From: an uncultured Nitrosomonadaceae bacterium
GTDB taxonomy: Bacteria > Pseudomonadota > Gammaproteobacteria > Burkholderiales > Nitrosomonadaceae
Assembly (NCBI GenBank): GCA_905612245.1
Contig: CAJQRL010000027.1
Coordinates: 1-41,472, forward strand
DNA: 41,472 bases
Direction: 5' to 3'
In this document: positions 37,119 to 40,033 of the stretch, one piece after another
Position numbering within the stretch: position 1 is the first letter of the stretch
How the letters are laid out: every line of letters begins with the position of its first letter
Notes under the pieces: generated by a model
Told to the model about the DNA's origin: nothing
The model's input: the letters and a program-made list of their open reading frames with translations, nothing else
Databases searched by the model: none
Position numbers and translations under genes: made by a program

Positions 37119-37844
37119 ATGGCAGGGCACAGTAAGTGGGCAAACATCAAGCACAAGAAAGCAGCAACAGATGCCAAACGCGGTAAGATTTTTACTCGGG
37201 CAATTAAGGAAATAACAGTTGCTGCACGACTGGGTGGTGGTGAAATAGCAAGTAATCCGAGATTACGGTTAGCGGTTGACAAGGCCTATGATCAAAACAT
37301 GCCTAAGGATAATGTAGAGCGCGCAATTAAACGTGGTAGTGGCGATCTGGAAGGTGTAAATTACGAAGAAATTCGTTATGAAGGTTATGGCATTGCAGGT
37401 GCAGCTGTAGTCGTAGATTGTATGACAGACAATCGCGTGCGAACTGTTGCAGACGTACGACACGCTTTTACTAAACATAGCGGCAACCTGGGTGCTGATG
37501 GGTCGGTTCTGTTTTTATTTAAACATTGCGGTCAGCTCTTTTTTGCTCCGGGTACTAACGAAGACAAACTAATGGAAGCTGCTTTAGAAGCAGGCGCCGA
37601 GGATGTAATCAATAACGATGACGGTAGTATTGAGGTTATTACCCCGCCGTATGAATTTATAACTATTAAAGCTGCTTTGGAGAAAACTGGTTTCAAATCA
37701 GAGTTAGCTGCGGTGACCATGAAGTCAAGCAATGAGATTATATTAACAGGTGAAAATGCAGTAAAAATGCAAAAGTTATTGGATGCTCTTGAAAGTATAG
37801 ATGATGTTCAGGAAGTTTTTACCTCAGCAGTAATTGATAGTTAA
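37119..37844 (+). CDS. yebC: YebC/PmpR-family protein
   Basis: This is a 241-residue member of the YebC/TACO1 family, beginning [15 protein letters not shown]. These proteins were described as transcriptional regulators and more recently as ribosome-associated translation factors. It precedes ruvC by 22 bases, the standard yebC-ruvC-ruvA-ruvB order. A consensus DnaA box lies upstream. Confidence 0.95.
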
Positions 37845-37866
37845 TTTATTATCTGACAGGTGACAT

Positions 37867-38385
37867 ATTCGCATTCTAGGTATTGACCCAGGCTTGCGCA
37901 TAACTGGTTTTGGGGTCATCGATAAAACTGGCAATAAATTAACTTATGTCAGCAGTGGTCGCATCAAAACTTTAGATGCCGAGCTGCCATTACGTCTAAA
38001 ATCAATCATGGATAACCTCAATGAAGTTATCGCGCAATATCATCCCGATCAGGTTGCAGTGGAGCAGGTATTCGTTAACATTAATCCAAAGTCAACGCTG
38101 ATGCTTGGGCAGGCGCGAGGTGCAGCAATTTGTGCGGCTGGATTAAACGATCTTTTTGTTGCTGAATACACTGCACTGCAAATCAAACAGGCAGTTGTCG
38201 GTAACGGTCATGCAAAGAAAGAGCAGGTTCAGGAAATGGTGAAGCGTTTATTAGGCCTTTCTTCTAAGCCAGGTTCGGATGCGGCGGATGCGCTTGCTTG
38301 TGCTATTTGTCATGCTCATGGTGGCTCAGGCTTAGGCAAGACATCAACAGAAGGGTACAGTATGAAACGCGGAAGACTGGCATGA
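37867..38385 (+). CDS. ruvC: Holliday junction resolvase RuvC, AUU start
   Basis: RuvC cuts Holliday junctions moved by RuvAB. The catalytic acids are the aspartate in GIDPG, the glutamate in VAVEQVF, and two aspartates in [13 protein letters not shown] is encoded at 37879-37893, upstream of the first standard start (TTG 37894), and a stop at 37861-37863 closes the frame. The only start that keeps it is ATT at 37867, preceded by a strong Shine-Dalgarno (CAGGTGA) at the right distance, giving 172 residues (E. coli 173). AUU starts are known for infC and pcnB in E. coli. A base error turning ATG into ATT is the alternative. The stop overlaps ruvA in an ATGA. Confidence 0.9.
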
Positions 38386-38966
38386 TTGGGAGATTAACGG
38401 GCTTGTTGTTAGAAAAGCAGCCGCCTTTAGTGCTGCTTGACGTGCAGGGCGTGGGATATGAAGTAAATGTTCCGATGAGTACATTTTATACCCTGCCAGA
38501 TACTGGAGAGAGAATTATTCTTCATACTTATCTTGTAGTGCGGGAAGATGTACATTTGTTGTTCGGCTTTGCAACTGACACTGAGCGACAGGCTTTTCGT
38601 CAACTCGTAAAAATTTCCGGTGTGGGAGCAAGAACTGCATTAGCAGTTTTGTCAGGTTTAAGCGTCTCTGATTTATACCAGGCGGTGGTAGATCAGGATA
38701 GCAGACAAATCATTCAGGTTCCGGGAATTGGCAAAAAAACTGCTGAGCGCTTACTGTTGGAATTGCGGGACAAACTTAGTTCTGACATGATTGGTACTGA
38801 TGGTCATGCATCCTCTTCAAAAATAACTAATGACGTGCTCAATGCTTTGTTATCATTGGGTTATAATGAGCGAGAGGCTAGTTGGGCAATTAAAAAACTG
38901 TCTTTAGATGTTACCGTATCCGAAGGGATACGAGAGGCTCTTAAATTTCTTTCAAAGGAAAGATAG
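38382..38966 (+). CDS. ruvA: Holliday junction helicase subunit RuvA
   Basis: RuvA binds the four-way junction and loads RuvB. The start is ATG 38382 ([12 protein letters not shown]), overlapping the ruvC stop; a longer open frame upstream is not RuvA sequence. It has 194 residues. Domain I lies at about 1-64, the helix-hairpin-helix motifs [15 protein letters not shown] and [16 protein letters not shown] form domain II, and a C-terminal RuvB-binding domain III lies at about 145-194. ruvB follows 26 bases later. Confidence 0.96.
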
Positions 38967-38992: not shown

Positions 38993-40033
38993 ATGATTGA
39001 AACTGAGAGATTAATAGCTGCAGCTCCCGTTTCCTCTGAAGAAGAGGTCGTAGAGTTAGCTCTGCGTCCAAAGCGCCTAGATGAATATGTTGGTCAGGAA
39101 AAGATACGCGGACAGTTGGAGATATTTATTGAGGCTGCAAGGAATCGGAAGGAAGCGCTTGATCATGTGCTGTTGTATGGTCCTCCTGGATTAGGCAAGA
39201 CTACACTTGCTCATATAATTGCAAGAGAAATGGGGGTAAGTTTGCGCCATACGTCTGGTCCTGTACTGGAGCGCCCTGGTGATTTGGCGGCACTTTTGAC
39301 TAACCTTGAGCCCAACGACGTACTATTTATTGATGAAATACATCGCCTTTCTCCGGTGGTAGAAGAGATTCTTTATCCGGCGCTTGAGGATTATCAACTT
39401 GATATCATGATTGGTGAAGGTCCTGCGGCACGCTCAGTTAAGCTTGATTTGCCTCCTTTTACTTTAGTGGGGGCCACTACCCGTGCCGGTATGCTGACTA
39501 ATCCTCTACGCGATCGCTTTGGTATTGTTTCACGGCTGGAATTCTATTCTTCTGATGAACTTACCAGAATCGTAACTCGTTCAGCCCGGGTGATGAACGT
39601 AGAGATCTCTCCTGATGGCGCAACAGAAATTGCTATTCGTTCACGCGGAACGCCACGGATTGTTAATAGACTCTTACGCAGGGTACGGGATTTTGCTGAG
39701 GTCAAAGCAGAAGGGACCATCAGTCAGGTTGTGGCAGATTCTGCACTGACGATGCTGGATGTAGACAGCATTGGTCTTGATGTGATGGATAGAAAGTTAC
39801 TTCTATCAGTAATAGAAAAATTTGATGGTGGCCCCGTCGGAGTTGATAATCTTGCAGCGGCCATTAGTGAGGAGCGGGATACTATAGAAGATGTACTAGA
39901 ACCATACCTGATACAGCAGGGATTCCTGAAACGTACGCCACGCGGACGTATGGCCACGAGCATTGCTTACCAACATTTTGGAATACCATTGAAAAATGGG
40001 TTGAGCGGCGATATGAGTGAAGAAAAACACTAA
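38993..40033 (+). CDS. ruvB: Holliday junction helicase ATPase RuvB
   Basis: RuvB is the AAA+ motor for branch migration. It has 346 residues. Walker A is [11 protein letters not shown], Walker B is LFIDEIHRL, sensor 1 is in VGATTRAG, and the C-terminal winged helix contains RTPRGRMAT. It ends three bases before ybgC, linking the ruv genes to the tol genes. Confidence 0.97.

Follow-up and report, generated by a model that had tools for sequence, protein, structure and literature searches.

A probable AUC or AUU start codon for ruvC, conserved in the Nitrosomonadaceae

Bacterial genes that start with an AUH codon are already known, namely infC, pcnB, cvfC1 and ccpN. The infC gene, which encodes initiation factor IF3, has an AUU start in Escherichia coli, and pcnB of the same species is reportedly kept low by an inefficient AUU start, to go by the title of a 2002 paper by Binns and Masters. 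To our knowledge, conserved AUC or AUU starts beyond infC and pcnB are few. In Staphylococcus aureus, excerpts of one study (PMC13009471) give AUA as the infC start and describe cvfC1 (AUU) and ccpN (AUA) as genes whose conserved non-canonical starts accompany a strong Shine-Dalgarno sequence; in reporters from the same excerpts, non-canonical starts gave about 10% of the AUG output in poor medium. The word ruvC is absent from the main text of that study. Excerpts of two further papers deal with IF3 itself, where raised IF3 inhibits non-canonical starts (PMC2268962) and where, in a reconstituted system, more IF3 lowers the full-length fraction when CAU reads AUU (PMC10158994).

The gene considered here is the ruvC of a 41,472-nt stretch of DNA that was analysed as a whole (the window), which forms contig C27 of a 1.0-Mb draft genome (69 contigs, 72% complete) from a relative of ammonia oxidisers. 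The gene order is yebC, ruvC, ruvA, ruvB (Table 1); names other than ruvC were assigned from the protein sequences. Positions 37857-37899 read CAGGTGA CAT ATT CGC ATT CTA GGT ATT GAC CCA GGC TTG CGC, giving (I)RILGIDPGL as the N-terminus from 37867, and the gene closes with TGA 38383-38385. A preliminary description had proposed an AUU start on the grounds that no canonical codon precedes GIDPG in frame, that a stop lies two codons upstream of ATT 37867, that a Shine-Dalgarno sequence is properly placed before it, and that the resulting length equals the family norm. Each of these observations is borne out. Between TGA 37861-37863 and GIDPG, the ruvC frame of the window contains no ATG, GTG or TTG, the first being TTG 37894, after GIDPG; one codon (CAT) separates that TGA from ATT 37867; AGGTGA ends 3 nt ahead; and 172 aa is the commonest length, found in 97 of 121 family genomes. 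The open reading frame list, which uses canonical starts, gives 163 aa from TTG 37894. Mechanical calling also places the ruvA start at TTG 38298 (38298-38966), and the conserved MIGRLTG start of RuvA corresponds to ATG 38382.

Table 1. Features around the ruvC start site in the window
Feature	Position	Strand	Remarks
yebC	37119..37844	+	Upstream neighbour; ATG start; TAA 37842-37844; 22 nt lie between it and the ruvC start codon
Shine-Dalgarno AGGTGA	37858..37863	+	3 nt between its end and ATT; last three bases are an in-frame TGA stop
Putative ruvC start codon ATT (AUU)	37867..37869	+	From the window sequence and relatives
ruvC, 172 aa, Holliday junction endonuclease	37867..38385	+	Catalytic GIDPG at 37879-37893; from profile and structure alignment
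First canonical in-frame codon, TTG (Leu10)	37894..37896	+	A start there would lose the catalytic Asp
ruvA	38382..38966	+	ATG overlaps the ruvC stop (ATGA, 38382-38385)
ruvB	38993..40033	+	ATG start

The same position was then compared across the family, called Nitrosomonadaceae after its nearest named records, where 122 of 125 genomes had a ruvC match and 121 were read, one (G107) being dropped at a contig edge. The three without a match were G007, G031 and G143; G031 is 99% complete in about two contigs, so that it may lack ruvC or carry a copy too diverged to match. Of the 121 genomes, 95 have no in-frame ATG, GTG or TTG in the interval between the upstream stop and the catalytic Asp, and codon 1 in these is ATC (55), ATT (39) or ATA (1). 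Over all 121, the counts are ATC 69, ATT 47, ATA 2 and one each of ATG, ACC and ACT. The preliminary description had named the codon in relatives as a check on a base error, and the outcome that would have pointed to one, ATG throughout, is absent, ATG occurring in 1 of 121. Its AUU start is strongly supported, but the trait is no oddity of a single genome: it is family-wide, and AUC is commoner than AUU.

Some canonical in-frame codon is present in the other 26 genomes. One (L023) has ATG at codon 1, and the remaining 25 have an upstream TTG, GTG or ATG, or a TTG for Leu at codon 4, which is the sole reason for counting L222 here. Where an upstream TTG or GTG is present, codon 1 can be ACC or ACT (L160, L229). 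The clade-mates of L023 (L019, L160, L163, L169, L179, L194 and L206) carry TTG 5-10 codons before codon 1, and none of them has a strong Shine-Dalgarno sequence at codon 1. Some of the 26 may thus really use a canonical codon (the ATG of L023, the TTG of its clade-mates), in which case the AUY (AUC or AUU) trait can be lost.

Among the 95 relatives, Shine-Dalgarno pairing peaks 3-5 nt before codon 1, and pairing of -5 kcal/mol or better at 3-9 nt occurs in 81, against an average of 14.7 and at most 22 over 50 shuffles; a strong Shine-Dalgarno is missing in the other 14. Moreover, 14 of the 26 genomes with a canonical codon also keep a strong one at codon 1, including L229, where that codon is ACT, and no upstream alternative among those listed has one at the -5 kcal/mol level. 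Mapped on the family tree, codon 1 underwent 14 C/T changes at its third base and two between pyrimidine and purine (toward ATA and ATG), whereas Ile codons 3 and 6 show 8 and 10 pyrimidine/purine changes; Ile codon 12 shows 5 over 96 rows, so that the contrast with codon 1 is modest. The pattern hints at a preference for AUY over AUA and AUG at codon 1, within the limits set by transition bias and by a poorly resolved tree (37 of 124 inner branches open). Neither the window nor three relatives showed RNA structure at the start in excess of that expected by chance (z 0.01, 0.35, -0.82 and 1.23). In 400 kb of one same-genus relative there are 10 tRNA genes, one of them Met (cat) and none odd.

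Beyond the family, 106 of 114 matched genomes of the order were compared, with canonical starts sought solely upstream of codon 2. Codon 1 encodes Met in 27, Val in 22, Ile in 22, Leu in 14, Thr in 9, Arg in 8 and other residues in 4, and many of these ruvC genes have an upstream canonical codon together with Ile or Val at the codon 1 position. Five of the 106, from four families, have no canonical start (L012, L310, L337, L351 and L352). Two of them, L351 and L352 of a single family, have ATT behind AGGAG or GGGGAG, which looks like an independent origin. A further record outside the family, titled Sulfuricella sp. (L067), has ATC at codon 1, with the frame closed by a stop two codons earlier and without a canonical start. 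A DNA-level search for the E. coli ruvC gave no match.

Judged from sequence, it is very probable that ruvC has a true, conserved but weak AUY start behind a strong Shine-Dalgarno, and that AUU 37867 is used in the window, probably with low RuvC output. The scheme that we infer comprises initiation at AUU 37867, low output, dependence on IF3, co-transcription, and RuvC kept scarce relative to RuvAB. The AGGTGA sequence would hold the ribosome while the ordinary initiator fMet-tRNA pairs imperfectly with AUU 37867, and IF3 would disfavour AUU or AUC; poor pairing with the initiator anticodon and disfavour by IF3 would together make initiation weak and, hence, RuvC synthesis low. The four genes, yebC, ruvC, ruvA and ruvB, are probably co-transcribed, and ribosomes finishing yebC may help initiation at ruvC. 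The weak start would keep RuvC low, with ruvA and ruvB having starts of their own, so that the AUY codon probably keeps RuvC scarce. Sensitivity of the ruvC start to IF3, which the preliminary description had also put forward, is plausible by analogy, as it fits both the literature and the ATA start of infC in this family. It is tempting to go further and to picture AUY as fixed in the family because it forms an IF3-sensed throttle in a compact yebC-ruvCAB operon, one that would hold the RuvC:RuvAB ratio low and make Holliday junction resolution follow the levels of initiation factors, selection having favoured AUY over AUG and AUA and similar starts having arisen independently in other families of the order; taken whole, this proposal is rather unlikely.

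Another possibility deserves serious weight, even if we lean somewhat away from it: the AUY start could be real and without any regulatory role. The ancestral upstream start would have been lost, a near-cognate codon behind a strong Shine-Dalgarno would supply enough RuvC, and there would be no pressure for AUG. This would agree with the many ruvC genes outside the family that have Ile or Val at codon 1 and a canonical codon upstream, with the missing canonical start in four other families (5 of 106), and with the gain and loss of upstream canonical codons within the family, which amount to 13 changes on its tree. Against it, AUG is one third-base change away and yet occurs in 1 of 121 genomes, with some 14 C/T changes to 2 involving a purine, a point that transition bias weakens.

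That translation begins at some other codon, such as TTG 37894 (giving a truncated, inactive product), ATT 37873 or another non-canonical codon, is very improbable. TTG 37894 is the first canonical in-frame codon and the choice of gene callers restricted to ATG, GTG and TTG, but it lies 30 nt beyond the end of the Shine-Dalgarno, as compared with 9 nt for ATT 37873 and 3 nt for ATT 37867. Moreover, RILGIDPG is conserved in 119 of 121 family genomes (93 of the 95 without a canonical codon) and the third bases of its codons vary among relatives, which together indicate that these codons are translated. The protein itself argues in the same direction. From ATT, RuvC scores 194.1 bits against TIGR00228 (cut-off 100.65; profile positions 1-149 of 156) and 183.3 bits against PF02075 (cut-off 22.2; positions 1-148), and narrowly misses the cut-off of NF000711, a further NCBI model (157.9 bits; cut-off 163). 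The version from TTG 37894 still passes TIGR00228 at 176.6 bits, but it begins at profile position 9, having lost the first eight positions and, with them, the catalytic Asp. The full version aligns with the solved RuvC structure 1hjr, which we take to be that of E. coli, from residue 3 of both, and GIDPG, VEQVF and DAADAL all align. The catalytic acidic residues include Asp7 along with others, and Asp7 is part of the product only if translation starts before TTG 37894. By profile and alignment, then, the predicted product is a full RuvC, a Holliday junction endonuclease, and it is 90-94% identical to the nearest named records (assemblies titled Nitrosomonadaceae, Betaproteobacteria and Nitrosospira).

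A base error or assembly artefact that turned ATG into ATT at 37867 might be suspected in a draft assembly of 69 contigs and 72% completeness, but its probability is negligible. Five same-genus genomes (L025, L026, L213, L226 and L227) have ATT without a canonical alternative, and the named strains L035, L036, L072, L097 and L098 carry ATC or ATT. No canonical codon is found in N. multiformis Nl18 and Nl7, N. oligotropha Nm75, N. marina Nm71 or Nitrosovibrio tenuis Nv1, placing the trait in named strains of Nitrosospira, Nitrosovibrio and Nitrosomonas, although these loci partly duplicate genomes among the 121. Relatives and named strains refute such an error at the level of the family.

Finally, that a frameshift or stop readthrough extends YebC into RuvC may be rejected with near certainty: yebC ends 22 nt upstream, and in L165 the ruvC frame stays open for 249 codons into yebC, but yebC in the window occupies a different frame with TGA 37861 in between, and the open frame of L165 is a low-complexity shadow translation of yebC rather than YebC. 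The same open ruvC frame into yebC was seen in L068 (Nitrosovibrio sp. Nv17).

To gauge how rare such a start is, orthologs were paired across 400 kb from each of two genomes, one of the same genus and one of group g3. From 219 reciprocal best pairs, 140 were kept; the others overlapped a better pair or sat within a longer frame. Before this filter, 29 pairs seemed to match ahead of the first canonical codon on both sides; the 27 that it removed were judged to be mostly antisense frames. Besides ruvC, a single pair survived, its match being 4 of 9. In ruvC alone of the 140 pairs, the stretch that precedes the first canonical codon of both genes is fully conserved (9 of 9), and no other pair among them has more than four identities on both sides. 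One-sided matches included 5/9, 5/13 and 4/7 (ruvA). One genome also holds a 72-codon frame without a canonical codon that matches at 33 of 72 positions and is probably antisense. As to the neighbours, yebC starts with ATG in 118 of 121 family loci (its start was not seen in three) and ends 20-27 nt ahead of ruvC codon 1 in 83 of the 118, and a crude reading of ruvA in the 121 gives ATG 68, GTG 28, TTG 11 and 14 without a clear motif.

A search of open-access full texts, a scope outside which most subscription journals lie, found, among the matches listed, no report of a non-canonical ruvC start, its ruvC matches concerning other matters. An AUC or AUU start on a DNA-repair nuclease persists in most of the 121 sampled family genomes, and the family offers a natural AUC/AUU/AUA/AUG series of one gene for studying what maintains a weak start and whether IF3 affects recombination. 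In practical terms, gene callers limited to ATG, GTG and TTG would be expected to shorten these RuvC proteins at the N-terminus, with loss of the catalytic Asp.

One of the closest known parallels is infC, the textbook case. Its start position is ATA in all 20 family loci read, and in 17 of these the conserved motif is not preceded by any canonical codon; the remaining three have GTGs inside the conserved segment, and L147 has a further one far upstream. Ten loci outside the family gave ATC in seven, ATA in one (L151), ATG three codons upstream in one (L145) and a start that was not located in one (L131), the AUH codon of infC varying by lineage across these loci (L129-L158). The window's own genome, at 72% completeness, gave no infC match. 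Like ruvC here, infC has an AUH start without a canonical alternative that is kept across species. Unlike ruvC, it is autoregulated through the IF3 that it encodes; RuvC is no initiation factor, and any IF3 control of ruvC would therefore run one way. The pcnB gene shares the AUU start, but it is another gene in another lineage, and the commonest ruvC codon is AUC. Finally, cvfC1 and ccpN resemble ruvC in combining a conserved non-canonical start with a strong Shine-Dalgarno, and differ from it in belonging to a distant lineage and in having been mapped experimentally.
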